A stretch of 49,979 nucleotides of DNA from contig NZ_SMKM01000011.1 of NCBI RefSeq assembly GCF_004348665.1, positions 1-49,979 on the forward strand, written 5' to 3'. The notes under the pieces are model-generated. The model worked only from the letters and a program-made list of their open reading frames with translations, ran no database searches and was not told the DNA's origin. This DNA comes from Actinomadura sp. GC306. Its GTDB lineage: Bacteria > Actinomycetota > Actinomycetes > Streptosporangiales > Streptosporangiaceae. A program made the translations under genes and the position numbers. Positions 28,537 through 43,633 of this stretch are shown here, piece after piece; position 1 is the first letter of the stretch, and each line of letters opens with the position of its first letter.

Positions 28537-29364
28537 TCAGTAGTCCGCGAGGCGGGCGCGCGCCGCCGCCACCGCCGGCGGGACGGGGCGGCGCGCGCCG
28601 GCCAGCGCGGGCAGGGCGCGGGCGGCGTCCGCGAGGCCCGCGCGGCCGTCCCGGGTGCCGAGCGCCGCGGCGGCGGCGCCGGCGACCGCCGGGAGCGGGC
28701 GGCGCAGCCAGGCGGTCAGCAGCCGGTTGCGCGCCTCCCTGCGGCGGCGCCCGGCCGGGTCGCGGCCCGCCGTGGACGGGTGGTGGTGGACGACCAGTTC
28801 GGGCACGTACGCCAGCCCCCACCCGGCGGCGGCCAGGTCCAGGGCGAGGAGTTCCTCCTCCCCGCCGAAGTGCAGCACCTCCGAGAAGCCGCCGGCGTCG
28901 AGGAACGCGTCCCGCCGGACGATGACCGAGCAGGCGAGGAAGCCGAGGATCGCCGGTCCGGGCAGCCCGTCCGGCCGGCCGAGCGGGGCGCGGGCCATCT
29001 CCGCCGAAACCGGCTCCAGCCGCTCCTCCTCGCCGACGAGGACGCGGGCGGCGAGCAGCGCCGTCCGCGGGTGCGCGTCCAGGATCTCCACGGCGCGGTC
29101 CAGGGCGCCGGGGGCCCACCAGGAGTCGTCGTCGGCGAACGCGACGTAGCGGGTCGAGGCGTGCCAGGCCGCGGTGGTGCGGGCGGCGGCGCCCAGGTTG
29201 CGCGGCAGCCGCAGCACCGCGGCGCCGGCCTCCTCGGCGACGGCGGCCGTGCCGTCGGCGGAGGCGTTGTCGGCGACGATCACCGGGGCGGTGTGCCGGG
29301 CGAGGCTGCGGCGCAGTTCCGGGGCGCGGTCGCGGGTCGCGACGACGACCGTGACGGCGGGCAT
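28537..29364 (-). CDS. Glycosyltransferase family 2, first paralogue
   Basis: A 275-residue GT-A glycosyltransferase. The nucleotide-binding start is VTVVVATRDRAPELRRSLAR, with VIVADNASADGTAAV and the metal-binding DxD-type motif ADDDSWW. The acceptor region contains GGEEELLALDLAAAGWGLAYV. It is clearly paralogous to the gene at 29378, matching it through the DDD, GGEEELL, WGL/WQL, VVHH and R-N-x-L-x-x-A/T-W-L-R-R-P-L-P segments. Its AGGAGG overlaps the stop of that gene, so the two are coupled. The donor and acceptor are not known; it is likely part of the adjoining glycan cluster. Confidence 0.87.
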   Translation of the reverse strand: MPAVTVVVATRDRAPELRRSLARHTAPVIVADNASADGTAAVAEEAGAAVLRLPRNLGAAARTTAAWHASTRYVAFADDDSWWAPGALDRAVEILDAHPRTALLAARVLVGEEERLEPVSAEMARAPLGRPDGLPGPAILGFLACSVIVRRDAFLDAGGFSEVLHFGGEEELLALDLAAAGWGLAYVPELVVHHHPSTAGRDPAGRRRREARNRLLTAWLRRPLPAVAGAAAAALGTRDGRAGLADAARALPALAGARRPVPPAVAAARARLADY

Positions 29365-29377
29365 CGGCGGCGTCCTC

Positions 29378-30265
29378 CTAGCTCACGTAGCGGCGGGCCC
29401 TGGACGCCCGCTGGGACGCCTCCAGGCTCCGGAGCCGCTCCTCGACGTCGGGGGGCAGCGGGCGGCGCTCGCGCGCGACCCAGGCCAGCCCCGCGGCGGC
29501 CTCGGCGAGCGCGGCGGCCGTGACGCGGTCGCGCGGCAGGGTGCGCAGCAGCCCGGCCGTGCGCCGCGCGGCGGCGGGCAGCGGGCGGCGCAGCCAGGTG
29601 AACCACAGCGTGTTGCGGATGCCGTGGCGGCGCCGCAGGTGCGGCTCGCGCAGCGGGGACGGCTCGTGGTGCACGACGACGTCCTCGGCGAAGCAGAGCT
29701 GCCAGCCCAGCGTCATCAGGTCGGCGCTGAGCAGCTCCTCCTCGCCGCCCAGCCACAGGCGCGGGGAGAACCCGCCGGCCTCGCGGAACGCCTCGGCCCT
29801 GACCATGGACGCCCCGGCGAGGAACGAGCCGAGGGCCGGGCCGGGCAGCCACGGCGGCCCGGGGACCGGCGAATGCCGCAGCTCCGGCACGATCGGGTCC
29901 TCGCGGCCGCCGGGGTCGACGAGGATCCGCCCGGTGACGACCGCGAGCCGCGGGTGGGCGTCGAGCAGGTCCGCGGCGCGCGACGGGGCGTCCGGCTCCC
30001 ACCAGGTGTCGTCGTCCCAGAACGCCACGTACGGAGTGCGGACGTGGTCGACGGCCAGATTCCGGGCGACGGCGCCGAGATTGCGCGGGGAACGGATCAG
30101 CTCCACCTCGGGGAATTCCGCCGCGACGGCGTCGGAAGCGCCGTCCCGCGACGCGTTGTCGACGACGATGACCGGGGGCGATTCCGTGATCTTCCGGGTG
30201 CGCGCGAGGGCGGCCAGCAGCGAATGCCGGCGGTCCCGGGTGATCATTACGACGGTGAAGCGCAT
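29378..30265 (-). CDS. Glycosyltransferase family 2, second paralogue
   Basis: A 295-residue GT2 enzyme beginning FTVVMITRDRRHSLLAALAR with VIVVDNASRDGASDA, the WDDDTWWEP metal motif, and GGEEELLSADLMTLGWQLCF. It shares its layout along the full length with the gene just downstream, so a tandem duplication is the simplest origin. ATG at 30265 begins the fold; the upstream frame extension was rejected. It is divergent from the carbamoyltransferase that starts the main glycan operon, with 224 bases between. Confidence 0.87.
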   Translation of the reverse strand: MRFTVVMITRDRRHSLLAALARTRKITESPPVIVVDNASRDGASDAVAAEFPEVELIRSPRNLGAVARNLAVDHVRTPYVAFWDDDTWWEPDAPSRAADLLDAHPRLAVVTGRILVDPGGREDPIVPELRHSPVPGPPWLPGPALGSFLAGASMVRAEAFREAGGFSPRLWLGGEEELLSADLMTLGWQLCFAEDVVVHHEPSPLREPHLRRRHGIRNTLWFTWLRRPLPAAARRTAGLLRTLPRDRVTAAALAEAAAGLAWVARERRPLPPDVEERLRSLEASQRASRARRYVS

Positions 30266-30370
30266 ATCGCCGCGGGTACCCCCGGGACCCGGATCTATGT
30301 GTGCTTCCCGCCCACTAGCTGCTACTTCGCCTGACAGCGACTTTCCGGACGGCAACGTTTAGAGCCCCAG

Positions 30371-30399
30371 TTATCGGCAATCTCGGAATCACCTATAGG
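30371..30399 (+). promoter_or_regulatory. Candidate promoter of the glycan operon
   Basis: In a relatively AT-rich part of the 224-base divergent gap, TTATCG (30371-30376) and TATAGG (30394-30399) are 17 bases apart, about 90 bases before the carbamoyltransferase ATG. The -35 match is poor, so this is tentative. Confidence 0.3.
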
Positions 30400-30489
30400 G
30401 GATTTGCTTCTCGATAGACCCGCCAAGCACCGGTGCCCACGACGACGTCACCGGTACACCACCGATTGCAGCGCCGAAACGGGGCTCAT

Positions 30490-32130
30490 ATGCGCGTGCT
30501 CGGAATCAATGCGATCTTTCATGACCCGGCGGCCGCACTGGTCGTCGACGGGGCCGTCGTCGCGGCGGCGGAGGAGGAGCGCTTCAGCCGCCGCAAGCAC
30601 GGCAAGCGGCCGGTGCCCTTCGCCGGCTGGGAACTGCCGGAGCAGGCCGCCCGCTGGTGCCTCGCCGAGGCCGGGCTGGAGCCCGGCGACCTCGACGCCG
30701 TCGCCTACTCCTACGACCCGGACCTCGTCGAGCCCGGGCTGGACGGGCACGACGTCCAGTGGGAGAGGCTGCGGACGCTGTACGCGCGGCGGGCGCCGAA
30801 CTTCCTGGCGACCGCGCTGCCGGGCCTCGACCCGGGGATCGTGCGGTACGTGCCGCACCACGTGGCGCACGCCGCGTCCGCCGCGCTCGCCGCGCCCGGC
30901 CCCGGCGACGGCGACGTCCTGGTCCTGGACGGCCGCGGCGAGTCGCACTCGCACCTCGCCGGGACCTACGAGGGCGGCGTCCTGAACCCGCTGCGCGCGC
31001 AGCGCCTCCCCCACTCGCTCGGCCTCATGTACGAGGACCTCACCCAGCACCTCGGCTTCCTGCGCTCCAGCGACGAGTACAAGGTCATGGCGCTGGCCTC
31101 CTACGGCGAGCCGCGCTTCCTGAACGAGCTGCGCGAGCACGTCCACGCCACCGGGGACGGCGGCTTCGCCGTCGCGGGCATCGACTGGGGCGCGCTGGCC
31201 AAGCCCCGCCCGCCGGACGGCGAGTGGACCCGCGACCACGCCGACCTCGCCGCGAGCGTCCAGGCCCGTCTCGAAGAGGTCCTGCTGGACCTGGCGTCCT
31301 GGCTGCACGGCCGCACCGGCTCCCGTCGGCTGATGCTCGCCGGCGGCGTCGCCCTCAACTGCGTCGCGAACTCGCGGCTCGCCGAGGCGGGGCCCTACGA
31401 CGACATCTGGGTGCAGCCCGCCGCGGGCGACGCCGGCACGGCGCTCGGCGCCGCGCTGCACGTCGCGCAGGCGGGCGGCGACCCGCCGTCGGCCATGCCC
31501 GGCGCCGATCTCGGGCGCCGGTGGGACGACCGGGAGATCGCGGCCTTCCTGGACACCGCCAGGATCCCGTACGAGCGTCCCGGCGACCTGGCCGCGGAGG
31601 TGGCCGGCGCCCTCGCCCGCAACGAGATCGTGGCGTGGTTCCAGGGGCGGTCCGAGTTCGGGCCGCGCGCGCTCGGCCACCGGTCGCTGCTCGCCCACCC
31701 GGGCCACGAGGAGAACCTGGAGCGGCTCAACGACGTGAAGGGCCGCGAGCAGTTCCGGCCGATCGCGCCGATGGTCGCGCTCGACCAGGCGGCGGAGGTC
31801 TTCGACGGGCCGCTGCCCAGCCCGTACATGCTGTTCGTCCAACGGGTGCGGCCCGGCTGGCGCGAGCGGATCCCCGCGGTCGTCCACGTGGACGGCACCG
31901 CCCGGATCCAGACGGTCGACGCCGCCGACGAGCCCCTTGTCGCGCGGCTGCTGGCGGAGTTCCGCGACCGGACCGGCCTGCCGGTGGTCGTCAACACGAG
32001 CCTGAACACCGCCGGGCGCCCCATGGTCGACGACCCGCGGGACGCGCTGGAGTGCTTCGGCTCCGCCCCGGTGGACCTGCTGGCCATCGGGCCGTTCGTC
32101 GTCCGCCGACGGGAGGTGCACGCCCGATGA
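30490..32130 (+). CDS. Carbamoyltransferase (NodU/CmcH/TobZ family)
   Basis: A 546-residue O-carbamoyltransferase. The N-terminal Kae1-like domain has LGINAIFHDPAAALVVDG and the metal-site motif HHVAHAASA, then VLVLDGRGES and MLAGGVALNCVANSRL; the C-terminal YrdC-unrelated domain has QGRSEFGPRALGHRSLLAHP and VVNTSLNTAGRPMVDDP. It moves a carbamoyl group from carbamoyl phosphate, via carbamoyl-AMP, to a hydroxyl of a sugar. First of ten plus-strand genes; its stop overlaps the next start. The acceptor is probably a sugar of the glycan made by this cluster. Confidence 0.93.
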   Translation: MRVLGINAIFHDPAAALVVDGAVVAAAEEERFSRRKHGKRPVPFAGWELPEQAARWCLAEAGLEPGDLDAVAYSYDPDLVEPGLDGHDVQWERLRTLYARRAPNFLATALPGLDPGIVRYVPHHVAHAASAALAAPGPGDGDVLVLDGRGESHSHLAGTYEGGVLNPLRAQRLPHSLGLMYEDLTQHLGFLRSSDEYKVMALASYGEPRFLNELREHVHATGDGGFAVAGIDWGALAKPRPPDGEWTRDHADLAASVQARLEEVLLDLASWLHGRTGSRRLMLAGGVALNCVANSRLAEAGPYDDIWVQPAAGDAGTALGAALHVAQAGGDPPSAMPGADLGRRWDDREIAAFLDTARIPYERPGDLAAEVAGALARNEIVAWFQGRSEFGPRALGHRSLLAHPGHEENLERLNDVKGREQFRPIAPMVALDQAAEVFDGPLPSPYMLFVQRVRPGWRERIPAVVHVDGTARIQTVDAADEPLVARLLAEFRDRTGLPVVVNTSLNTAGRPMVDDPRDALECFGSAPVDLLAIGPFVVRRREVHAR

Positions 32131-33665
32131 GCCGACCCGCCGACGGCATCACCGTCGTCATCCCGACGATCGGCCGGGAGAGCCTGCGCGGCACGCTGCG
32201 GGCGCTGCTCGCCGGGCTCGGCGGCGCGGCGCGGCCCGCGATCCGCGAGATCGTCGTCGTGGACGACCGTCCCGCGCCCGGAGCGCCGCTCCCCCTGCCC
32301 GCGGACATGCCGCCGGCCGGGCCGGAGGTCCGGGTGATCCGCTCGGGGGGCCGCGGGCCCGCCGCCGCCCGGAACGCGGGCTGGCGCGCCGCCGCGGCCG
32401 GGTGGGTCGCCTTCCTGGACGACGACGTCGTCCCCGCGCCGGACTGGCCCGCCGCCCTCGCCGCGGACCTCGCGGACCTGGCGCCCCAGGTGGGCGGCTC
32501 CCAGGGCCGCGTCACGGTCCCGCCGCCGGACGGCCGGGCCCCGACCGACTGGGAGCGCAACACCGCGGCCCTCGCGGACGCGGAGTGGATCACCGCCGAC
32601 ATGGCCTACCGCCGCGGCGTCCTCGCCGAGCTGGGCGGTTTCGACGAGCGGTTCCGCCGCGCCTACCGCGAGGACGCGGACCTGGCGCTGCGCGCCATGG
32701 ACGCCGGGCACGGGCTCGTCCTCGGCGAGCGGAGGGTGACCCACCCGGTCCGGCCCGCCGGCTTCTGGGCGTCGGTGCGGGCGCAGGCGGGCAACGCCGA
32801 CGACGTCCTCATGTGGCGGGTCCACGGCGGCTCGTGGCGCGAGCGCGCCGGCGAGGGCCGCGGCATGCTCCGCCGCCACGTCCTCACCACCGCCGCCGCC
32901 CTGGCCGCCGCCGGATCGCCCGCGGTGCTGCGCGGCCGCCGCGGCCGGGCCGCCGCGCTGGCCGCCGGAGGCGTCTGGGGCGCGCTGACCGCCGGGTTCG
33001 CCCACCGGCGGATCCGGCCTGGCCCGCGGACGCCCGGGGAGGTCGCGAAGATGCTGGTGACCAGCGCCGCCATCCCGCCCGCCGCGGTGTGGCACCGGGT
33101 GCGCGGCCTGGCCGTCCATCGCGGGGCACGGCCCTGGGGCGGGCCGCGGGTCGTGCTGTTCGACCGCGACGACACGCTCATCCGCGACGTCCCCTACAAC
33201 GGGGACCCGGAGCGGGTGGAGCCGATGCCGGGGGCGCGCCGCGCCCTGGACCGGCTGCGGCGGCACGGCGTGCTGATCGGCGTCGTGTCCAACCAGTCGG
33301 GCGTGGCGAAGGGCCTCATCACCGCCGGGGACGTCCGGCGCGTCAACGCGCGGGTCGAGCGGATCCTCGGCCGGTTCGACGTGTGGGAGTTCTGCCCGCA
33401 CGACGGCGGCGACGGCTGCGAGTGCCGCAAGCCGCGGCCGGCGATGATCGAGCGCGCGGCCCGGCGGCTCGGGGCGCGCCCGTCCGACTGCGCCGTCATC
33501 GGCGACATCGGCGGGGACGTCGAGGCCGCGGCCGCGGCCGGCGCGCGCGGCATCCTCGTCCCGACCCGCCGCACCCGCCCCGAAGAGGTGGCGAGCGCGG
33601 CCGAGACGGCGCCGACGCTCCGCGCGGCCGTCGATCTGGTCCTCGGCGGAAGGCGGCGCCGATGA
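32127..33665 (+). CDS. Fusion of GT2 glycosyltransferase and GmhB-like heptose bisphosphatase
   Basis: A 512-residue two-domain protein. Residues 1 to about 330 are a GT2 transferase (GITVVIPTIGRESLRGTLRA, VVVDDRP, AFLDDDVVPAPDW, YREDADLALRAMDAGH). From about 342 it is an HAD phosphatase of the histidinol/heptose-bisphosphatase group: FDRDDTL with the nucleophile Asp, SNQSGVAKG, the zinc-binding set in CPHDGGDGCECRKPRP, and IGDIGGDVEAA. GmhB removes the C7 phosphate from heptose 1,7-bisphosphate. With GmhA and HldE downstream this supplies the missing step. Four-base overlaps at both ends. Confidence 0.9.
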   Translation: MSRPADGITVVIPTIGRESLRGTLRALLAGLGGAARPAIREIVVVDDRPAPGAPLPLPADMPPAGPEVRVIRSGGRGPAAARNAGWRAAAAGWVAFLDDDVVPAPDWPAALAADLADLAPQVGGSQGRVTVPPPDGRAPTDWERNTAALADAEWITADMAYRRGVLAELGGFDERFRRAYREDADLALRAMDAGHGLVLGERRVTHPVRPAGFWASVRAQAGNADDVLMWRVHGGSWRERAGEGRGMLRRHVLTTAAALAAAGSPAVLRGRRGRAAALAAGGVWGALTAGFAHRRIRPGPRTPGEVAKMLVTSAAIPPAAVWHRVRGLAVHRGARPWGGPRVVLFDRDDTLIRDVPYNGDPERVEPMPGARRALDRLRRHGVLIGVVSNQSGVAKGLITAGDVRRVNARVERILGRFDVWEFCPHDGGDGCECRKPRPAMIERAARRLGARPSDCAVIGDIGGDVEAAAAAGARGILVPTRRTRPEEVASAAETAPTLRAAVDLVLGGRRRR

Positions 33666-34672
33666 AGGTCCTCGTCGCCCGCCAGGACAACATCGGCGAC
33701 GTGCTGCTCGCCGGCCCGGCCGTGCGGGCGGTCGCCGGACGCGCCGACGAGGTCGTGCTGCTGTGCGGCCCGCGCGGGCGCGCGGCCGCCGACCTGCTGC
33801 CCGGCGTCGACCGCGTCATCGAGTGGTGCGCGCCGTGGATCGACCCGGACCGGGTGCCGGTCGAGCGGGACGACATCGACGGCATCACCCGCCGGCTCCG
33901 CGGCTTCGACCGGGCGCTGATCCTGACCTCGTTCCACCAGTCGCCGCTGCCGCTGGCGCTGCTGCTGCGGCTGGCCGGGACGCCGTGGATCGGCGGCATC
34001 AGCGAGGACTACCCCGGGTCGCTGCTCGACCTGCGGCACCGCCCCGGCGAGGACATGCCCGAGCCGCTGCGGATGCTGTCGCTCGCGGAGGACGCCGGGT
34101 TCCCCGCCCCGGCCGACACCCGGCTGCGGGTGCGGGAGCCGCTCCCGGACACCGACCACCTCACCGGCGGCCCCGGGTACGTCGTCGTGCACCCGGGCAC
34201 GTCCGTGCCCGCGCGGGCCTGGCCGCCGGAGCGCTGCGCAGAGGCCGTCCGGCTGCTGCGCGCCGCGGGCCGCCGCGTCGTCGTCACCGGCCACGGGGAG
34301 GAGAAGGAGCTGACCGCGCTCGTCGCCGGCGAGGACGGCCTCGACCTCGGCGGCCGGACGTCGCTCGCCGAGCTGGCGTCGGTGCTGCGGGGCGCGTGCG
34401 CCGTGATCGCCGGCAACACCGGCCCCGCGCACCTCGCCGCGGCCGTCGGGACGCCGGTCGTGTCGCTGTTCGCGCCGACCGTGCCCGCGGCCCGGTGGGC
34501 GCCGTTCGGCGTCCCGATGGCGCTGCTCGGCGACCAGATGGCGCCGTGCAAGGACAGCCGCGCCCGCGAATGCCCGGTCGAGGGGCATCCCTGCCTGGCG
34601 TCGGTCCGCGCGGACGAGGCCGCCGCGGCCGTGGAGATCGTGGCCTCGGTCGAGGAGGTGCCCACCCGGTGA
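33662..34672 (+). CDS. GT9 heptosyltransferase-family glycosyltransferase, first copy
   Basis: A 336-residue GT-B enzyme of family 9: N-terminal VARQDNIGDVLLAGPAVRAV, central YVVVHPGTSVPARAWPPERC, and the donor-site region NTGPAHLAAAVGTPVVSLFA followed by PTVPAARWAPFG. GT9 enzymes transfer heptose from ADP-heptose to LPS core in Gram-negatives; with the heptose pathway encoded alongside, a heptosyltransferase role here is plausible. The usual DTGP is NTGP. The C-terminal CKDSRARECPVEGHPC segment has three cysteines often seen in actinobacterial GT9 proteins. Confidence 0.88.
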   Translation: MKVLVARQDNIGDVLLAGPAVRAVAGRADEVVLLCGPRGRAAADLLPGVDRVIEWCAPWIDPDRVPVERDDIDGITRRLRGFDRALILTSFHQSPLPLALLLRLAGTPWIGGISEDYPGSLLDLRHRPGEDMPEPLRMLSLAEDAGFPAPADTRLRVREPLPDTDHLTGGPGYVVVHPGTSVPARAWPPERCAEAVRLLRAAGRRVVVTGHGEEKELTALVAGEDGLDLGGRTSLAELASVLRGACAVIAGNTGPAHLAAAVGTPVVSLFAPTVPAARWAPFGVPMALLGDQMAPCKDSRARECPVEGHPCLASVRADEAAAAVEIVASVEEVPTR

Positions 34673-35664
34673 GAGTGCTGATGTGGCACGTGCACGGCTC
34701 TTGGGCGACGTCGTTCGTCCACGGGCCGCAGACCACGCTCGTCCCCGCGACCCCCGGCCGGGACGCCGACGGGAAGGGGCGGCCCGACACCTTCCACTGG
34801 CCCGGCCGCGCGGTCGAGGTCGCGCCGGAGCGGCTCCGCCACGAGGACGTCGACGTCGTCGTGCTGCAGCGGCCCCATGAGCTGCGGCTGGCCGAGGAGT
34901 GGCTGGGGCGCCGGCCCGGACGCGACGTCCCCGCCGTCTACGTCGAGCACGACACTCCCCGCCGGACCCCGTCCGACATCGGCATGCCCGAGGAGGTCGT
35001 GCCCGACAGCCGGCACTTCCTGCACGACCGCTCCGACATCCCGGTCGTCCACGTCACCCATTTCAACCGGCTGTTCTGGAACTGCGGGCGGGCACCGGTC
35101 AGGGTCATCGAGCACGGCGTCGTCGACCCCGGCCACCGGTACACCGGCGAGCTGCCGCGCGCGGGCGTGGTCGTCAACGACCCGCTGCGCCGCGGCCGCG
35201 TCGCCGGCACCGACCTGCTGCCCGAGCTCGCGGCGGCCGTCCCCCTCGACCTGTTCGGCATGAACGTGCGGGACGCCCCCGAACGGCTCGGGATCGCCCC
35301 CGAATCCCTCTGGACGTTCGAGGACCTGCCGCAGGCGCAGATGCACGAGCTGCTCGCCCGCCGCCGCGTCTACGTCCACCCCTACCGGTGGACCTCGCTC
35401 GGCCTCGCCCTGATCGAGGCCATGATGCTCGGCCTGCCGGTGGTGGCGCTCGCCACCACCGAGGCGGTCGAGGCGGTGCCGCCGGAGACCGGGGTGCTGT
35501 CCACGCGCGTCGCCGCACTCGCCGACGCCGCGCGCAGCCTGGCTGCCGACCCGCCGCGAGCCCGCCAGATGGGCAAGGAGGCGCGGGCCTACGCCGTCGA
35601 GCGGTACGGCCTGCCGCGGTTCCTGCGCGACTGGCGGCGAACTCTCCAGGAGGTAGCGCGATGA
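34669..35664 (+). CDS. GT-B (GT4-like) glycosyltransferase
   Basis: A 331-residue glycosyltransferase. The N-terminal half (VLMWHVHGSWATSFVHG, DVDVVVLQRPHEL, AVYVEHDTPRRTPSDIG) is unlike textbook GT4, but the C-terminal half has the nucleotide-sugar pattern: VYVHPYRWTSLGLALIEAMM and GLPVVALATTEAVEAVP, with the E-x7-E type region replaced by T-S-L-G-L-A-L-I-E. GTG at 34669 overlaps the preceding stop as GTGA. The sugar is unknown; it is bound to the operon by overlaps on both sides. Confidence 0.82.
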   Translation: MRVLMWHVHGSWATSFVHGPQTTLVPATPGRDADGKGRPDTFHWPGRAVEVAPERLRHEDVDVVVLQRPHELRLAEEWLGRRPGRDVPAVYVEHDTPRRTPSDIGMPEEVVPDSRHFLHDRSDIPVVHVTHFNRLFWNCGRAPVRVIEHGVVDPGHRYTGELPRAGVVVNDPLRRGRVAGTDLLPELAAAVPLDLFGMNVRDAPERLGIAPESLWTFEDLPQAQMHELLARRRVYVHPYRWTSLGLALIEAMMLGLPVVALATTEAVEAVPPETGVLSTRVAALADAARSLAADPPRARQMGKEARAYAVERYGLPRFLRDWRRTLQEVAR

Positions 35665-36893
35665 GGATAGCCATGATCTCCGAGCACGCCAGCCCGCTCG
35701 CCGCCCTAGGCGGCCCCGCGGGACTCGGCGGAGCGGACGGCGGCGGGCAGAACGTGTTCGTCGCGGAACTGGCCGCCGAACTCGGCCGGCAGGGGCACTA
35801 CGTCACCGTCTACACGCGGCGGGACGCGCCCGGCCCGCCGGACCGGGTGCGGCTCGCGCCCGGCGTGACCGTCGAGCACGTCCCGGCGGGCCCGCCCGAG
35901 CGCATCGCCAAGGACGAGCTGCTGCCCTGGATGCACGACTTCGGGCGCTACCTGGAGCACCGCTGGTCGGCGGATCCACCGGACGTCGCGCACGCCCACT
36001 TCTGGATGAGCGGCCTCGCGGCGGTCCAGGCCGCGCAGCCGCCCGCGGCGCCGCGCGTGCCGGTCGTGCAGACCTACCACGCGCTCGGCACCGTCAAGCG
36101 CCGCCACCAGGGCGGCAGGGACACCAGCCCGGCGTCCCGGGTGCGGCTGGAGCGCGCGCTCGGCCGCGCCGCCGACACCGTGATCGCGACCTGCTCGGAC
36201 GAGGTCGCCGAGCTGACCGCGATGGGCGTGCCCCGCGACCGCGTCCGGGTGGTCCCGTGCGGCGTCGACCTCGGCCTGTTCTCGCCCGGCGGCGGCGCGG
36301 CCGGGCCCGCGCCCGGCGGCCGGCACCGCCTGGTGGTGCTGTCGCGGCTCGTCGAGCGCAAGGGCGTCGACACCGCCATCCGCGCGCTGGCGCACCTGCC
36401 GGACGCCGAGCTCGCCGTCGCCGGCGGACCGCCGCACGGCGGCCTCGACGGCGACCCCGAGGTGCGCCGCCTGCGGGCGGTCGCGCGGGAGGCGGGCGTG
36501 TCCGGCCGCGTGGAGTTCCTCGGCCGGCTCGGCCGCGCCGAGGTGCCCGCGCTGCTGCGGTCGGCGAGCCTCGTGCTCACCCTCCCCTGGTACGAGCCGT
36601 TCGGGATGGTGCCGCTGGAGGCGATGGCCTGCGGCGTCCCGGTCGTGGCGAGCGCCGTCGGCGGGCACCTCGACACCGTGGTGGACGGCGTCACCGGGAC
36701 CCTCGTCCGGCCGCGCGACCCCGAGGCCGCCGCCCGCGCGGTCCGGGCGCTGCTCGACGATCCGGACGCGCGGGCCGCGATGGGGATCGCCGCCGCCGGC
36801 CGGGCGCGCGAGCGCTACTCCTGGGCGAGCGTCGCCGCCGGCACCACCGAGGTCTACCGGCACGCCGCGGCGCGGAGCGAGGTGCCCGCATGA
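35661..36893 (+). CDS. GT4 glycosyltransferase
   Basis: A 410-residue GT-B family 4 enzyme. It starts IAMISEHASPLAALGGPAG and has GGADGGGQNVFVAELAAELG, the acceptor-site AHFWMSGLAA, VVPCGVDLGLFSP, VVLSRLVERKGVDTAIRA and the donor E-x7-E motif in YEPFGMVPLEAMACGVPVVA. Retaining GT4 enzymes use UDP-, GDP- or ADP-sugars. A perfect AGGAGG lies at 35648-35653 inside the preceding gene, so translation may be boosted here. Overlaps gmhA by four bases. Confidence 0.9.
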   Translation: MRIAMISEHASPLAALGGPAGLGGADGGGQNVFVAELAAELGRQGHYVTVYTRRDAPGPPDRVRLAPGVTVEHVPAGPPERIAKDELLPWMHDFGRYLEHRWSADPPDVAHAHFWMSGLAAVQAAQPPAAPRVPVVQTYHALGTVKRRHQGGRDTSPASRVRLERALGRAADTVIATCSDEVAELTAMGVPRDRVRVVPCGVDLGLFSPGGGAAGPAPGGRHRLVVLSRLVERKGVDTAIRALAHLPDAELAVAGGPPHGGLDGDPEVRRLRAVAREAGVSGRVEFLGRLGRAEVPALLRSASLVLTLPWYEPFGMVPLEAMACGVPVVASAVGGHLDTVVDGVTGTLVRPRDPEAAARAVRALLDDPDARAAMGIAAAGRARERYSWASVAAGTTEVYRHAAARSEVPA

Positions 36894-37486
36894 CGGCCCC
36901 CGCCCGCACCAGGACCGCGACCCCGCAGGACCGGCGGCTGGAGGCGCTCGCCGAGGCCGCGCTGCGGTTCCGCGAGCAGGTCCCCACCATCGAGGCGTGG
37001 GGGCGGCGCCTCGCCGGCGTCCTGCGCGGCGGCGGGCGGCTGCTGGCGTGCGGCAACGGCGGCAGCGCCGCCGAGGCGCAGCACCTGACCGCCGAGCTCG
37101 TCGGCCGGTTCGAGGACGAGCGGCGGCCGCTGTCGGCGATCCCGCTGCACGGCGACACCTCGTCGGTCACCGCCATCGGCAACGACTACGGCCACGCCAG
37201 CGTCTTCGCGCGGCAGGTGCAGGCGCACGGGCGGCCCGGCGACGTGCTGGTGTGCCTGTCGACCAGCGGCCGCAGCCCCAACGTGATCGCGGCGGCGCGC
37301 GCGGCCCGGCACCTCGGCATCACCGCGTGGGCGATCACCGGGCCGGGGCCGAACGCCCTCGCCGGCGCGTGCGACGACGCCGTCACCGTGGACGCGGCCG
37401 CCACCTCGACCGTCCAGGAGATCCACCTCGCCGCGATCCACCTGCTGTGCGGGGTGATCGACGACGCTCTGGGGGTGACGCCATGA
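36890..37486 (+). CDS. gmhA: Sedoheptulose 7-phosphate isomerase GmhA
   Basis: A 198-residue SIS-domain protein that matches GmhA: LLACGNGGSAAEAQHLTAEL with the zinc-ligand His and nearby Glu, AIPLHGDTSSVTAIGNDYG, VLVCLSTSGRSPNVIAAA and the C-terminal STVQEIHLAAIHLLCGVID with the second histidine. It turns sedoheptulose 7-phosphate into D-glycero-D-manno-heptose 7-phosphate, the first step to ADP-heptose. Coupled to hldE by a four-base overlap, as expected for consecutive pathway steps. Confidence 0.93.
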   Translation: MTAPARTRTATPQDRRLEALAEAALRFREQVPTIEAWGRRLAGVLRGGGRLLACGNGGSAAEAQHLTAELVGRFEDERRPLSAIPLHGDTSSVTAIGNDYGHASVFARQVQAHGRPGDVLVCLSTSGRSPNVIAAARAARHLGITAWAITGPGPNALAGACDDAVTVDAAATSTVQEIHLAAIHLLCGVIDDALGVTP

Positions 37487-38892
37487 CCGCCCCGCTGGTG
37501 GTCGTCGGGGACGTCCTGCTCGACATCGACATCGTCGGCAGCAGCAGCCGGCTCTGCCCGGACGCGCCCGTGCCCGTCGTCGAGCAGGCCGAGGAGCTGC
37601 CCCGCCCGGGCGGCGCCGGGCTGGCGGCGCTGCTCGCGGCCCTGCAACCGGGCAATGCCGGGCGCGAGGTGGTGCTCGTCACCGCCCTCGCCGACGACGA
37701 GCCCGGCCGGCGGCTGCGCGCGATGCTCGAGAAGCACATGGAGGTCGCCGCCCTGCACCTGCACGGCGGCACCCCCTGCAAGCTGCGCATCCGGTCCGGC
37801 GGCCAGTCGGTGGCGCGCCTGGACGCCGGGGAAGGGCAGGCCCTCGACGGGCCCGTCGGCCCGCGCGTCACCGACGCCATCGCCGGGGCGGGCGCGGTGC
37901 TGGTCGCCGACTACGGCCGCGGCGTCACCCGGCACCGCGCCGTCCGGTCCCTGCTGAGCGGGCTCCCCGCGGAGGTCCCCGTCGTGTGGGACCCGCATCC
38001 GCGCGGCGAGGCGCCCGTCCCGGGCGTGCGGCTCCTCACCCCGAACGCGGCCGAGGCCGCCCGGCTCGCCGCCGCGTGCGGCGCCGAGGTCACCGGGACG
38101 GGGCTGTCGGCGGCGGGGCGGTGCGGCCGGTACCTGGCCGGCGCCTGGGGCATCGAGGGCGTCGCGGTCACGCTCGGCTCGGAGGGCGCGCTGCTGTGCG
38201 ACGGGTCGGAGGCGCCGCTGCTGGCGCCGGCGCGGCCCGCCCGCGGCGACTCGTGCGGCGCGGGCGACAGCTTCGCGGCGGGCGCCGCGGGCGCGCTCGC
38301 CGACGGCGGGTCGCTCGCCGACGCCGTCACCGAGGGCGTCGACCTCGCCTCGGAGTTCGTCCGCGCCGGGGCCGCCGCGGGCGTCGCGGCGCAGCTCGCC
38401 GAGACCGGCACCGCGCGGCTCGTCCCCGAGCGCGGCGAGGACGCCTGGGACATCGTCGAGCGGACGCGGCGGGCCGGCGGGACGGTCGTGGCGACCGGCG
38501 GCTGCTTCGACCTGCTGCACGCCGGGCACGTCAGCATGCTGCAGCAGGCGCGGCGGCTCGGCGACTGCCTGATCGTGTGCGTCAACTCCGACGCCTCGGT
38601 CCGGCGGCGCAAGGGGCCGACCCGCCCGGTGACGCCCGCCGCCGACCGCGTCCGGGTCCTGGAGGCGCTCAGCGACGTCGACGCCGCGCTGGTGTTCGAC
38701 GACGACACGCCCGCCCCGCTGCTGGAGCGGCTGCGCCCGGACGTGTGGGTGAAGGGCGCCGACTACGCCGGAACCACGCTGCCCGAGGCCGAGACGGTCC
38801 GGGCCCATGACGGGGAGGTGGTCCTGCTCCCCCTGCTGGAGGGGCGGTCCACCACCCGGCTGCTGTCCACCACGAAGGGAAACGCGTCATGA
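37483..38892 (+). CDS. hldE: Bifunctional heptose 7-phosphate kinase / heptose 1-phosphate adenylyltransferase HldE
   Basis: A 469-residue fusion of the length of E. coli HldE. Residues 1-310 are the PfkB-type kinase (VVVGDVLLDIDIVG, CPDAPVPVVEQ, DYGRG, LTPNAAEAARLA, catalytic Asp in SCGAGDSFAAG near 260). Residues about 330-469 are the cytidylyltransferase-type domain (GGCFDLLHAGHVSMLQQARR, VNSDASVRRRKGPTRPV, VKGADYA, EGRSTTRLL). The kinase PGGAANVA motif reads PGGAGLAA, a mild departure. It phosphorylates C1 and then adds AMP (nucleotide choice inferred from the family). Confidence 0.92.
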   Translation: MTAPLVVVGDVLLDIDIVGSSSRLCPDAPVPVVEQAEELPRPGGAGLAALLAALQPGNAGREVVLVTALADDEPGRRLRAMLEKHMEVAALHLHGGTPCKLRIRSGGQSVARLDAGEGQALDGPVGPRVTDAIAGAGAVLVADYGRGVTRHRAVRSLLSGLPAEVPVVWDPHPRGEAPVPGVRLLTPNAAEAARLAAACGAEVTGTGLSAAGRCGRYLAGAWGIEGVAVTLGSEGALLCDGSEAPLLAPARPARGDSCGAGDSFAAGAAGALADGGSLADAVTEGVDLASEFVRAGAAAGVAAQLAETGTARLVPERGEDAWDIVERTRRAGGTVVATGGCFDLLHAGHVSMLQQARRLGDCLIVCVNSDASVRRRKGPTRPVTPAADRVRVLEALSDVDAALVFDDDTPAPLLERLRPDVWVKGADYAGTTLPEAETVRAHDGEVVLLPLLEGRSTTRLLSTTKGNAS

Positions 38893-39566
38893 ACGTCCTC
38901 ATCACCGGTGGCGCCTCCGGACTCGGCGCGGCCGTCGCGCGCAGGGTCGCGGCCGACGGCGGGCGGCCGCTCGTCCTCGACCGGCACCCGCCGAAGGACG
39001 AGTTCGAGTACATGCAGGCCGACCTGGCCGACCGGCGGTGCGCCGAGCGGGCCGTGCACGGCCTGGCCCGCGCCGCCGGCGGGCTGAACGCGGTCGTCAC
39101 CGCCGCGGGCATCGACGCCTGCGGGACGCTGTGCGAGGTCCCCGCCGAGGACTGGGAGCGGGTCGTGCAGGTGAACCTGCTCGGCACCGCCGCCGTCGTC
39201 CGGGCCGCGCTCCCCTACCTGGAGAACGAGCCGCACGGGCGGGTCGTGACCGTCGCGTCGACGCTGGGGTTCCGGGCGGTGAGCGACGCGACCGCGTACT
39301 GCGCGTCCAAGTTCGGCGTCGTCGGGTTCACCCGGGCCCTCGCCGTGGAGATGGCGGGCCGCGTCGCGGTCACCATGGTCGTGCCCGGCGGCATGGACAC
39401 CGCGTTCTTCGACGACCGCACCGAGCAGTACAAGCCCGGTCCGGACGCGAAGCTCAACCGCCCCGAGGACGTGGCGGCGACGGTGGCGTTCGCGCTGTCC
39501 CAGCCCGCGGGCTGCGAGGTGCGGGAGATGGTCGTCTGCCCGTCGCAGGAACCGTCGTGGCCGTGA
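38889..39566 (+). CDS. Short-chain dehydrogenase/reductase
   Basis: A 225-residue classical SDR: LITGGASGLGAAVARRVA cofactor motif, an acidic residue after strand two (LVLDRHPP) favouring NAD, VVTAAGIDACG, the catalytic Ser in VASTLGFRAV and YCASK (Tyr/Lys). The C-terminal RPEDVAATVAFALSQ is typical. It may oxidise or epimerise a cluster sugar, but nothing in the sequence fixes the substrate. The classical SDR architecture is not that of the extended-SDR epimerase HldD. Overlaps at both ends place it in the operon. Confidence 0.88.
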   Translation: MNVLITGGASGLGAAVARRVAADGGRPLVLDRHPPKDEFEYMQADLADRRCAERAVHGLARAAGGLNAVVTAAGIDACGTLCEVPAEDWERVVQVNLLGTAAVVRAALPYLENEPHGRVVTVASTLGFRAVSDATAYCASKFGVVGFTRALAVEMAGRVAVTMVVPGGMDTAFFDDRTEQYKPGPDAKLNRPEDVAATVAFALSQPAGCEVREMVVCPSQEPSWP

Positions 39567-40495
39567 CGGGCCACCGGGTCCTGGTGCTGCGCGCGCTCGG
39601 CCTCGGCGACCTGCTGACCGGCGTCCCGGCGCTGCGGGCTCTGCGCCGCGGGGCGCCCGGCGCGCGGATCACGCTCGCCGCACCGGCCGCGCTCGGCTTC
39701 ATCGCCCGCGCCAGCGGTGCGGTCGACGACGTCCTGCCGGTGGACCGGCTGGCCCCGCTGCCGCACTTAGGCCCGGTGGACCTCGCGGTCAACCTGCACG
39801 GCAGCGGCCCGCAGAGCCACCGCGTCCTGGCCGGGCCGCGGCCGGACCGCCTCGTGGCGTTCGCCTGCGCCGAGGCGGGCCACACCGGCGGCCCCGCCTG
39901 GGATCCCGCCGAGCACGAGGTCGCGCGATGGTGCCGGCTCGTGTCGGCGTACGGGTTCGGCGCCGACCCCGCCGACCTGGACCTGCCCGCGCCGCCGGAG
40001 CCGTCGCCCGCGCCGGGCGCCGTCGTCGTCCATCCGGGCGCGGCGTACCCGGCGCGCCGCTGGCCCGCCGAGCGGTTCGCGGCCGTCGCGCGCGCGCTGC
40101 GCGGCCGCGGCGAGCGCGTCGTCGTCACCGGCGGCCCCGGCGAGGCGGGACTCGCGCGGCGCGTCGTGGAGCTCGCCGGGCTCGGCGGCGCTGCCGACCT
40201 GTCGGGCCGCACCGGCCTGGCGGAGCTGGCCGCGCTCGTCGCGGCGGCGCGGCTCGTGGTGTGCGGCGACACCGGCGTCGCCCACCTCGCGACCGCGTAC
40301 CGGACGCCGTCGGTCCTGCTGTTCGGCCCGACGCCCCCGGCCCGGTGGGGCCCGCCGGACCGGGCGGAGCACCTGGTCCTGTGGGCCGGGCGGCCGGGAG
40401 ACCCGCACGGCCGCGAGCCCGACCCGGGGCTGCTGGAGATCTCCGCGGGCCAGGCCGTCGAAGCCGCGGGCCGAGCGCTCACCGCCAACCGCTGA
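39563..40495 (+). CDS. GT9 heptosyltransferase-family glycosyltransferase, second copy
   Basis: A 310-residue GT9 enzyme: [20 protein letters not shown] at the N terminus, [20 protein letters not shown] in the middle, and [20 protein letters not shown] then [12 protein letters not shown] at the donor site. It is paralogous to the enzyme at 33662 but keeps the DTG sequence. In Gram-negatives WaaC and WaaF add successive heptoses, so two GT9 genes may mean two heptose transfers. GTG at 39563 overlaps the SDR stop; an in-frame GTG 6 bases earlier is an alternative. Confidence 0.88.
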
Positions 40496-40505
40496 GGGGG
40501 ACATC

Positions 40506-41462
40506 ATGAGACACCCACGCGCCGTCGTCACCGGAGGCTCCGGCTTCCTCGGCTCGCACCTGTGCGAGGCCCTGCTGGACCGGGGCATCTCCGTGGTGTG
40601 CCTGGACAACCTGCTGACCGGCACGTCCCGCAACATCGCCCACCTGGCCGAACGGCGCGACTTCCGGTTCCTGAGGCGCGACCTCACCGAGCCGGTGCAC
40701 GTGCCCGGCGAGGTCGGCTACGTGTTCCACCTGGCCTCGGCGGCGTCCCCGGCCGACTACCTGCGGCTGCCGATCCAGACGCTGGAGGTCGGCAGCCTCG
40801 GCACCCGCAACGCGCTCGGCCTCGCCGAGGCCAAGGGCGCCCGGTTCGTGCTGGCGTCCACGTCCGAGGTGTACGGGGACCCGCTCGTGCACCCGCAGCC
40901 CGAGTCGTACTGGGGCAACGTGAACCCGGTCGGGCCGCGCAGCGTCTACGACGAGGCCAAGCGGTTCGGGGAGGCGCTGACGTCGGCGTTCCGGCACTCC
41001 CGCGGCCTCGACACCGCGATCGCGCGGATCTTCAACAGCTACGGCCCGCGGATGCGGCCCGACGACGGCCGCGCCATCCCGACGTTCGTGCGGCAGGCGC
41101 TGACCGGGGAGGACCTCACGGTCACCGGCGACGGCTCGCAGACCCGCTCGATCTGCCATGTGGACGACACCGTCCGGGGCATCATGGCGCTCGCGACGGC
41201 CGGCCACCCCGGGCCGGTCAACATCGGCAGCCCCTACGAGGTGTCCATGGCCGAGCTCGCCCGGCTGATCATCGAGCTGACCGGGTCGCGGTCCCGGCTG
41301 CGCTTCGTCGACCTGCCGGAGGACGACCCGCGCGTCCGGCGGCCCGACACCACGCTCGCCGAGGAGGCGCTGGGCTGGCGCCCCCGCGTCTCGGTCGAGG
41401 ACGGCCTGCGCGCCACGATCGAATGGTTCGCCGGGCAGCTCCCTGCCGCCCGCCCGGCGTGA
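40506..41462 (+). CDS. UDP-glucuronate decarboxylase (UDP-xylose synthase)-like epimerase/dehydratase
   Basis: A 318-residue extended SDR. It has [33 protein letters not shown], the TSEVYGDP motif, [19 protein letters not shown] with the catalytic Tyr/Lys, and [20 protein letters not shown]. The YWGNVNP-x-GPRS and TSEVYGDP combination is characteristic of UDP-xylose synthase. It would make UDP-xylose from UDP-glucuronate; a UDP-glucose dehydrogenase is not in the window. ATG at 40506 follows GAGGGGGA; 10 bases separate it from the GT9 stop. Epimerisation of the heptose instead cannot be excluded. Confidence 0.82.
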
Positions 41463-41478
41463 CCCGGCGGGGCCGTCC

Positions 41479-42369
41479 TCAGCGGACGCCCAGGACCGCC
41501 AGCAGCTCACCGATCAAGGGCGTGCCGGGGGCCGGCCCCGGCACGCCTTCCGGTGACCGGCACCAGTCCCACCAGCGGTCGAGCTCGTCCGGGTCCAGCA
41601 GCGGCCCGTCCTGCCCGGTGCCGCGTTCGCCGACGGTCACGACGGCCGGCCACGACCACGCCCGCGCCTGCGCGGTGACCTTCGCGCCCCCGCGCACCGG
41701 GTCGACGGCCAGCGCGGGCACCCCGTTCTTCAGCGCCAGGACCAGCCCGTGCAGGCGCGTGGTGACCACCAGGTCGAGCCTGCGCAGCACCGACTCCAGC
41801 TCGGCCGCCGTCGTGCACAGCCGCCAGTCGCGCGGGTCGAGCCGCGTGTCCAGGGGCAGCCGGGCGCACTCCCGGGCGGCGAGCCACTCCGTCAGCTCCC
41901 GCTCGACCCGGTCGTGCAGCCGCCGCGTCCCGTACTCCGCCTGGCCGGGCGCCAGCACGACCCCCGCGACGGGCACCCGCGGGGTCTCCGGCAGCGCGGC
42001 CAGATCGGTCCGCGGCGGCGCCGCGGGCGCGTCGCGGGCGAGGACCGCGTCGAAACCGGTGACCGCGGGGCCGGCGGGGTCGATGACCGAGACCCCGACG
42101 GCGACGCGCGTGCAGCGGGCGTACCGGCGGTGCAGCTCCTCGACCTGCGGGCCGTGCAGCGGGCCGCAGGCGAACACCAGGTGGGTGTAGCGGCCGGGGT
42201 CGGCGCGGTCGAGGTCCAGGCCGCCCGGCCGGAGCACCGGGCTCCACGCCAGCTCGCACCGCACCCCGGCGCCGGCGAGCGCCCGCCGCACCGCCTCCAT
42301 CGCCAGGACGTCGCCCGCCGTCGCCTCGCCGTGCAGGAAACTCGGCCACCCCGTCACCAGGACGCGCAT
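41479..42369 (-). CDS. Polysaccharide pyruvyltransferase family protein
   Basis: A 296-residue protein of the CsaB/WcaK-like polysaccharide pyruvyltransferase family: start VLVTGWPSFLHGEATAGDVL, VFACGPLHGPQVEELHRR, the conserved TTRLHGLVLALKNGVPALAV and DPVRGGAKVTAQAR. These enzymes add pyruvate ketals to surface sugars using phosphoenolpyruvate; some members are glycosyltransferase-like instead. It converges on the glycan operon with a 16-base gap, so it may have its own regulation although its activity suits the cluster. Confidence 0.8.
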   Translation of the reverse strand: MRVLVTGWPSFLHGEATAGDVLAMEAVRRALAGAGVRCELAWSPVLRPGGLDLDRADPGRYTHLVFACGPLHGPQVEELHRRYARCTRVAVGVSVIDPAGPAVTGFDAVLARDAPAAPPRTDLAALPETPRVPVAGVVLAPGQAEYGTRRLHDRVERELTEWLAARECARLPLDTRLDPRDWRLCTTAAELESVLRRLDLVVTTRLHGLVLALKNGVPALAVDPVRGGAKVTAQARAWSWPAVVTVGERGTGQDGPLLDPDELDRWWDWCRSPEGVPGPAPGTPLIGELLAVLGVR

Positions 42370-42844: not shown

Positions 42845-43633
42845 ATGACGTCGGCGCAGCCCACCACGAGGTTCAACGACGGACAGGCCGAGAACCTCCT
42901 GGCGGAGATGAACCGGCTGGCGGAGGGAGATCCCCGGCGGGAACGGCTGCGGTCGCGCATCGTCGACATGCACGCGCCGCTCGTCCGCGGGGTGGCGCGC
43001 CGGTACGCCAACCGCGGGGAGCCCATCGACGACCTCCAGCAGGTCGCCTACCTCGGCCTGGTCAAGGCCATCAACCGGTTCGACCCGGGCATCGGCGACC
43101 GGTTCGTCACCTACGCCTACCCGGTGGTGACCGGGGAGGTGAAGCGGCACTTCCGCGACAAGACCTGGGGCATCCGGGTGTCGCGGCGCATCCAGGAGCT
43201 GCGCCCGATCCTGCAGCGCACCATCCAGGAGCACACCCGCGAGCACGGCGTCTCCCCCACCACGGCGGAGATCGCCTCCCTCATGGGCATCACCGAAGAG
43301 GAGACCGTCGAGGTCATCATCGCCTGCGACGCCTACCGGCCGCTGTCCCTGGAGGCCCCGGCGGACGGGTCTCCCGACGGCGACGCCGGCACCGTCGGCG
43401 AGTACCTCGGTTCGGACGACCCCGCCCTGGACGCCTTCATCGACGGGCACGCCCTCCGCCCGCTGATCGACGAGCTGCCCGAGCGGGAGCGGACCATCCT
43501 GCTGCTGCGCTTCTTCGGCAACAAGACCCAGACGCAGATCGCCGAGCAGATCGGGCTGTCGCAGATGCACGTCTCGCGGCTGCTCCGCGCCACGCTGGAG
43601 CGGCTCCGCACGGGGCTCCTCACCGAACGCTGA
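42845..43633 (+). CDS. SigB/SigF-family RNA polymerase sigma factor
   Basis: A 262-residue group 3 sigma factor. Region 2 is seen in HAPLVRGVARRYANRGEPID, DLQQVAYLGLVKAINRFDPG and FVTYAYPVVTGEVKRHFRDK; region 3 in IQELRPILQRTIQEHTREHG and TTAEIASLMGITEEETVEVI; region 4 ends LPERERTILLLRFFGNKTQT followed by the helix-turn-helix IAEQIGLSQMHVSRLLRATL. It belongs to the stress/differentiation class controlled by anti-sigma kinases (RsbW-like), but none is adjacent. ATG at 42845 lies 9 bases after GGAAGGGAG. Confidence 0.93.
   Translation: MTSAQPTTRFNDGQAENLLAEMNRLAEGDPRRERLRSRIVDMHAPLVRGVARRYANRGEPIDDLQQVAYLGLVKAINRFDPGIGDRFVTYAYPVVTGEVKRHFRDKTWGIRVSRRIQELRPILQRTIQEHTREHGVSPTTAEIASLMGITEEETVEVIIACDAYRPLSLEAPADGSPDGDAGTVGEYLGSDDPALDAFIDGHALRPLIDELPERERTILLLRFFGNKTQTQIAEQIGLSQMHVSRLLRATLERLRTGLLTER

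Follow-up and report, generated by a model that had tools for sequence, protein, structure and literature searches.

A putative heptose glycan gene cluster of Actinomadura sp. GC306 as a probable counterpart of the Streptomyces coelicolor cwg operon

The cwg operon of Streptomyces coelicolor was reportedly described by Hong, Paget and Buttner in 2002. In publications on S. coelicolor (among PMC5839063, PMC6767563, PMC4630627 and PMC5882110), it comprises SCO6179-6190 and is named a "cell wall glycan" operon that vancomycin induces and that depends in part on sigma-E; the glycan is a prediction in that organism too, and no structure of the cwg product was found in the literature searched. In this study, we analysed a window of 49,979 nucleotides from Actinomadura sp. 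GC306 (NZ_SMKM01000011.1), which makes up the whole of contig C22 in a draft genome of 7.08 Mb, and we consider it probable that the gene cluster at positions 28537-42369 is the Actinomadura counterpart of cwg, which would make a heptose-containing surface oligosaccharide under SigB/F-type control. The cluster is thereby linked to an envelope-stress operon already on record, a type of operon that now reaches across many families of actinomycetes.

Thirteen genes were called at 28537-42369 from open frames, codon-position GC and start sites. Ten plus-strand genes, overlapping or nearly abutting, occupy 30490-41462, with two divergent family 2 glycosyltransferase (GT2) genes at 28537-30265 and a convergent gene at 41479-42369. 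Families were assigned by Pfam and NCBIfam profile scans of the cluster proteins together with comparison with solved relatives, and the seven glycosyltransferase domains (two GT9, two GT4 and three GT2) and the carbamoyltransferase all exceed their Pfam cut-offs:

28537..29364, minus strand: GT2a, family 2 glycosyltransferase (Glycos_transf_2, 66.7 bits)
29378..30265, minus strand: GT2b, family 2 glycosyltransferase (Glycos_transf_2, 66.2 bits; 62% identity in locus L191)
30490..32130, plus strand: O-carbamoyltransferase of the NodU/TobZ family, CwgB counterpart (Carbam_trans_C 219 bits, Carbam_trans_N 178.7 bits)
32127..33665, plus strand: GT2c-GmhB fusion, counterpart of CwgC and CwgD (GT2 and HAD-IIIA domains)
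33662..34672, plus strand: GT9a, heptosyltransferase family, CwgE counterpart (Glyco_transf_9, 85.2 bits)
34669..35664, plus strand: GT4x, GT4-like glycosyltransferase (Glycos_transf_1, 47 bits)
35661..36893, plus strand: GT4m, GT4 glycosyltransferase, CwgG counterpart, kin of MshA and Tll1590 (133.1 bits)
36890..37486, plus strand: GmhA, sedoheptulose-7-phosphate isomerase, CwgH counterpart (SIS_2, 90.9 bits)
37483..38892, plus strand: HldE, heptose-7-phosphate kinase / heptose-1-phosphate nucleotidyltransferase, CwgI counterpart (PfkB, CTP_transf_like)
38889..39566, plus strand: SDR-family reductase (adh_short, 141.8 bits)
39557..40495, plus strand: GT9b, heptosyltransferase family, CwgJ counterpart (Glyco_transf_9, 103.2 bits)
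40506..41462, plus strand: relative of UDP-glucuronate decarboxylase (UDP-xylose synthase, UXS), CwgA counterpart (322 bits to 4gll/2b69)
41479..42369, minus strand: PyrT, weak polysaccharide-pyruvyltransferase-like protein, convergent neighbour (PS_pyruv_trans, 36.2 bits)

The first-pass annotation of this DNA had read a GmhA, an HldE and a GmhB-type domain clustered with GT9, GT4, carbamoyltransferase, SDR and UXS-like genes, which the frames and profile scans bear out; the UXS-like protein is a close relative of UDP-glucuronate decarboxylase, matching decarboxylase 1 in both solved structures. The two divergent GT2 genes were also correctly noted, except that the second most likely starts at 30265 and not at 30355. 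The closest named relatives among the matches listed for HldE at this locus, both at 97%, are Actinomadura livida and Actinomadura sp. 6K520.

The likeness to SCO6179-6190 was tested by promoter search and synteny, which supported it. The published cwg promoter was searched, allowing up to three mismatches, in 392 genomes of the genus of genome G389 (taken as Streptomyces), and ten matched, with an exact copy in one, G686 (an 8.63 Mb contig). Behind this exact promoter lie UXS, carbamoyltransferase, GT2c, GmhB, GT9a, GT4x, GT4m, GmhA, HldE, GT9b, GT2a and GT2b, in this order and followed by a convergent PyrT, and all twelve enzyme families have a homolog in the window, at 48-74% identity; the eleventh gene there corresponds to GT2a, which shares 48% with its homolog in L191. 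The core order from the carbamoyltransferase to the second GT9 is the same in L191 and in the window, with the SDR inserted in the latter. Promoter surroundings were fetched for eight of the ten genomes: five carry all twelve genes, G578 has GT2c- and GT4m-like remnants alone, and G816 and G820 gave no match that covers more than 40% of any cluster gene. The gene order of G686 also agrees with the names published for SCO6186 (phosphoheptose isomerase), SCO6187 (bifunctional synthase/transferase) and SCO6183 (cwgE, putative heptosyl transferase; PMC5882110), and SCO6182, printed there as a dehydratase, holds the position where GmhB lies. The promoter in G686, the synteny and the agreement with published names together therefore identify the window locus as a cwg-type cluster.

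The cluster has at least 115 relatives, and the 79 nearest loci from named genomes were used as the comparison set. All twelve homologs occur at 40% identity or more in 31 of these loci and ten of them in 57, some loci being cut by contig ends. The cluster or most of it is found in Actinomadura, Spirillospora, Actinoallomurus, Nonomuraea, Streptomyces, a Mycobacterium, a Nocardioidaceae bacterium and a Frankiales bacterium, and parts of it in Sinomonas and Amycolatopsis. Within the genus, the HldE nucleotidyltransferase domain scores above its cut-off in 25 of 36 genomes, and in an even sample of the phylum the window HldE is matched at E below 1e-100 in 29 of 396, the own genome being included in both counts. 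Gene order was compared with other Actinomadura and Streptomyces genomes, as had been suggested. Cluster genes flank HldE in 28 of 29 loci from 28 genomes inside and outside the genus (one of the 29 re-fetched regions was centred on a below-cut-off HldE match), so the arrangement is not one of chance. The earlier annotation had placed actinomycete heptose routes mainly in antibiotic synthesis and had implied a new kind of cluster; neither idea was supported, since this set of genes is that of the published cwg operon and occurs widely across the phylum. Seven Streptomyces loci (L118, L120, L121, L127, L131, L132 and L134) combine UXS, carbamoyltransferase, GT2, GT4, GmhA and HldE with no GmhB or GT9 homolog, and possibly represent a second kind of heptose cluster. 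Tandem HldE genes, one cwg-like and one divergent, were seen in L140 (Sinomonas atrocyanea) and L035 (genome G041).

The isomerase, kinase, phosphatase and nucleotidyltransferase of a nucleoside diphosphate (NDP)-heptose pathway are all encoded, with the checked motifs intact. GmhA reaches 90.9 bits to SIS_2 (cut-off 27) and 177.5 bits to the phosphoheptose isomerase model NF010546 (cut-off 276). HldE exceeds the cut-offs of PfkB (74.2 bits) and CTP_transf_like (76.7 bits), scores 262.9 bits to NF008454 (cut-off 521), and lies at the border of rfaE_dom_II, with 179.7 bits in one scan and 183.1 in another (cut-off 181.5). The GmhB domain scores 111.6 bits to HAD-IIIA (cut-off 44.6), remains below the cut-offs of the GmhB models themselves, and has D,D-heptose 1,7-bisphosphate phosphatase as its best solved relative (Foldseek TM 0.81 to 3l8h). 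Since the three enzymes score under the NCBI equivalog cut-offs, they belong to divergent subfamilies. Motifs were compared over 99 loci, namely the 79 nearest relatives and 20 from the cwg promoter search, and are invariant or nearly so: GAGD, GGCFD and HxGH in 96 HldE, the loop GNGGSA and QEIH in 95 GmhA, and DRD, CxH...CxCRKP and GD in 82 GmhB sequences. These are catalytic motifs of the three enzymes. Two more SIS_2 (GmhA-family) domains lie near each other elsewhere in the genome (G000:C210:9723-10977; loci L002 and L003).

No ADP-heptose 6-epimerase (HldD) scores above cut-off in the genome, the best match having 114.2 bits against 274.6, and the heptose is therefore expected to remain in the D-glycero-D-manno form. 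An arginine at the fifth position of the motif (F/L)XXGXSTT lets such nucleotidyltransferases also make CDP- or UDP-heptose (PMC11461863). The window HldE reads LLEGRSTT, with arginine at this position, and is predicted from it to use CTP or UTP routes (CDP/UDP) besides the ADP route. Among the 96 relatives, position 5 is arginine in 84, histidine in eight and tyrosine in three, with one not covered, and the first residue of the motif is phenylalanine or leucine in just 34.

The GmhB phosphatase domain recognised in the first pass is present, and its gene proved to be a fusion with a third GT2 in the N-terminal half: GT2 spans residues of about 1-235, a helical part about 248-330, and a HAD-IIIA heptose-bisphosphatase-like domain about 341-480. 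The structure model (mean predicted local distance difference test score, pLDDT, 85.8) has a GT-A-like domain, helices and a HAD domain resembling solved GmhB. GT2c and GmhB share one frame in 34 of the 61 loci having both, while 12 loci have them as separate frames, 14 have them on opposite strands and one has them in reversed order; the other 18 of the 79 loci lack GT2c, GmhB or both. PyrT is a less firm case. The pyruvyltransferase call stood as a family match (36.2 bits, cut-off 25.3), but the best stretch covers 38 residues, and the model (mean pLDDT 89.3, GT-B-like) superposes poorly, with a root-mean-square deviation near 20 and TM near 0.3, so PyrT is kept as a weak candidate pyruvyltransferase.

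In the proposed route, GmhA, the HldE kinase, the GmhB domain and the HldE nucleotidyltransferase would convert sedoheptulose 7-phosphate to NDP-D-glycero-D-manno-heptose, from which GT9a (weakly related to WaaF/WaaC) and GT9b would transfer heptose. UXS would provide UDP-xylose or a related pentose, the three GT2 and two GT4 domains would attach further sugars, and the carbamoyltransferase (a relative of TobZ, GdmN and the novobiocin carbamoyltransferase), perhaps also PyrT, would decorate them. The product is most likely a short, lipopolysaccharide (LPS)-core-like, heptose-containing surface oligosaccharide; it may carry heptose, carbamate, xylose and pyruvate, the last with the least confidence. 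Some 20 kb from the cluster, at 7529-10027 on the minus strand of the window, lies a nucleotidyltransferase fused to a phosphomannomutase-like part, a possible supplier of activated sugar.

Assembly of the oligosaccharide would take place in the cytosol, and proteins encoded outside the cluster would export it. As the earlier annotation had remarked, there is no flippase, polymerase or ABC exporter among the 13 genes, and a masked neighbour analysis of 42 loci, the window included, found no recurrent exporter, flippase, polymerase or ligase beside the cluster; the neighbours are house-keeping-like genes, plus a UDP-glucose dehydrogenase that adjoins the Mycobacterium cwg-type cluster (L105:12952-14253) and has relatives in L052 and L201; its presence in L105 favours a pentose supplied by way of UDP-xylose. 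A hydropathy scan gave no convincing transmembrane segment in the 13 proteins. The highest 19-residue means (2.15 in GT4x, 1.68 in GT9b, 1.66 in HldE and 1.62 in GmhA) fall inside predicted soluble domains and were rejected as membrane helices. Elsewhere in the genome there are six LytR-CpsA-Psr matches and three weak Wzx-like matches, none tied to the cluster, and the machinery for attachment and flipping may be encoded at such distant sites.

The missing priming phosphoglycosyltransferase, flippase and polymerase would also suit a lipid- or inositol-anchored glycolipid, in which GT4m would act first, on inositol or a phosphoinositide, with the remaining enzymes lengthening the chain. GT4m is indeed kin of MshA (TIGR03449, 239.4 bits; solved structure 3c48, 181.7 bits) and more distantly of PimA, but its TIGR03449 score is far under the cut-off of 462.5, Tll1590 is the better solved relative (200.7 bits), and the acceptor is not readable from sequence, so we regard a glycolipid as unlikely. 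That all 13 proteins appear soluble or peripheral would further agree with cytosolic transfer of sugars onto a protein, yielding a heptosylated protein and not a free glycan. GT9-related TibC-type enzymes heptosylate proteins, and GT9a has a weak TIGR04414 match (18.5 bits); however, the 42 loci share no recurrent neighbour that encodes an adhesin or another acceptor, and the number of glycosyltransferases suits a longer chain, which makes this quite improbable. A specialised-metabolite cluster for a small heptose-containing antibiotic such as septacidin or hygromycin B is very improbable: although septacidin synthesis in Streptomyces fimbriatus uses heptose enzymes (PMC11461863), the carbamoyltransferase resembles the antibiotic enzymes TobZ and GdmN, and Amycolatopsis locus L101 has GmhB, GmhA and HldE without other cluster genes, profile scans find no polyketide synthase, nonribosomal peptide synthetase or amino-sugar gene among the 13, there are seven glycosyltransferase domains, the set recurs through the genus (by HldE) and across families, and it is homologous to a cell-envelope-stress operon, so that the first-pass preference for a surface glycan over an antibiotic stands.

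The control region of the cwg-type cluster in Actinomadura looks different from that of S. coelicolor, and three features of the window may bear on it:

30357..30381, plus strand: SigB/SigF-type promoter-like element GTTTAG-N13-GGCAAT, 133 bases before the carbamoyltransferase start
30387..30404, no strand: near-perfect 18-bp palindrome AATCACCTATAGGGGATT, beginning five bases behind the -10 box
42845..43633, plus strand: SigB/SigF/SigG-family sigma factor beside the cluster (TIGR02980, 270.6 bits; cut-off 234.35)

Upstream regions were taken from 27 Actinomadura and Spirillospora loci, window included, leaving out those whose contig stops short of the gene. The pattern GTTT-N14/16-GG[GTC][TA]A is present in 26 of the 27 (exception L084), against a mean of 0.155 and a maximum of 2 in dinucleotide shuffles, and in 26 of all 67 upstream regions scanned against 0.53 expected, counts that overstate independence because the pattern was shaped on these sequences and the sequences are related. 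It occurs in none of the 40 other upstream regions, which include the Actinomadura-related L091, L093, L096 and L107 with a different gene order. It is a relaxed version of the SigB/SigF-family form, in which a GTTT-type -35 box and a GGG-A-type -10 box stand 12-15 bases apart. A better argument is the canonical GGGTA form of the -10 box in four loci (L081, L083, L085 and L111). According to PMC8346170, the -10 consensus for the S. coelicolor SigB homologues contains three G that hardly vary, although the listed promoters include TGGCAT and GGTAAA. The palindrome core is kept in 23 of the 27 regions (shuffle mean 0.11, maximum 1) and has no second place in the own genome at up to two mismatches; it is a possible operator over the transcription start for some regulator. 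Three SigB/F/G-family genes score above cut-off in the genome, one being that at 42845-43633, and among 30 Actinomadura/Spirillospora loci 16, including a partial one, have a relative of it next to the cluster; we hypothesise a regulatory link between this gene and the cluster. A stricter sigma-E pattern finds no site before the carbamoyltransferase in the 27 regions. A looser pattern matched GC-rich sequence some 25 bases ahead of the start codon in L069, L072 and L074-L077, and single places in L078, L081 and L088; these matches were not counted as promoters. Judged from these upstream sequences, transcription in Actinomadura probably starts at a SigB/F-type promoter under a palindromic operator, rather than from a sigma-E promoter like that of S. 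coelicolor.

Several points weigh against a cwg counterpart under SigB/F-type control. The likeness runs through G686-type genomes and published names, and not through the named S. coelicolor genome; UXS, GT2a and GT2b are placed differently than in the cwg operon; HldE and GmhA score under the equivalog cut-offs; and the product is predicted from genes alone. With regard to control, the -10 box GGCAAT of the window and most relatives lacks the third G, the promoter-like element is also present where no sigma gene adjoins the cluster, some of the 27 regions contain looser sigma-E-like matches, and the stricter pattern has a match on the divergent GT2b side of the window, of L074, of L078 and of other loci, probably by chance. 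In Streptomyces, a sigma-E site was found in only five of 25 cwg-type regions upstream of UXS, which speaks against a simple "switch" of control between the genera. SigB-type sites upstream of UXS were seen there in L097, L099, L117 and L135 only (L109 was left out of these results). According to PMC13011467, salt activates cwgA and SCO6178 without sigE induction, the cause being left open. A SigB-family route is one possible answer, though the five Streptomyces loci that have the sigma-E promoter showed no SigB-type site upstream of UXS.

In kind, the cluster is already known as cwg. Its interest lies in the product, in the nucleotides that HldE is predicted to accept and in a control region that looks different, and the leads it offers are possible heptose in a monoderm envelope, the activating nucleotide and the controlling sigma factor. 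A more far-reaching reading, doubtful as a whole, is that in Actinomadura the cluster answers to a SigB/SigF-family sigma factor of osmotic stress or sporulation and to a dedicated palindromic operator, in place of the envelope-stress sigma-E of S. coelicolor, that its HldE uses more than one nucleotide, and that the organism in this way makes an unpolymerised core-like oligosaccharide with D,D-heptose and carbamate, which would serve as a regulated coat on a monoderm cell.

Compared with known systems, the cluster shares heptose enzymes in an actinomycete with the antibiotic routes to septacidin and hygromycin B, but differs from them in having no scaffold genes, many glycosyltransferases and broad conservation. 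With the Gram-negative ADP-heptose pathway of LPS (GmhA-HldE-GmhB-HldD, WaaC/WaaF) it shares, by enzyme family, the first four reactions and the GT9 transferases, whereas it has no HldD above cut-off, divergent subfamilies, an HldE with Arg-5 and no lipid A context. In comparison with cwg, the window has GmhB fused to GT2, an extra SDR between HldE and GT9b that is absent from the sigma-E-promoter cwg operons, UXS at the end and not at the beginning, and GT2a and GT2b in divergent orientation, so that it is not a single co-directional 12-gene unit, and a SigB/F-type element and palindrome in place of the sigma-E site. Common to both are homologs of the twelve enzymes, among them a phosphoheptose isomerase, a bifunctional HldE, two GT9, a carbamoyltransferase and UXS, the core carbamoyltransferase-GT2-GmhB-GT9-GT4-GT4-GmhA-HldE-(SDR)-GT9, and a convergent PyrT homolog alongside.

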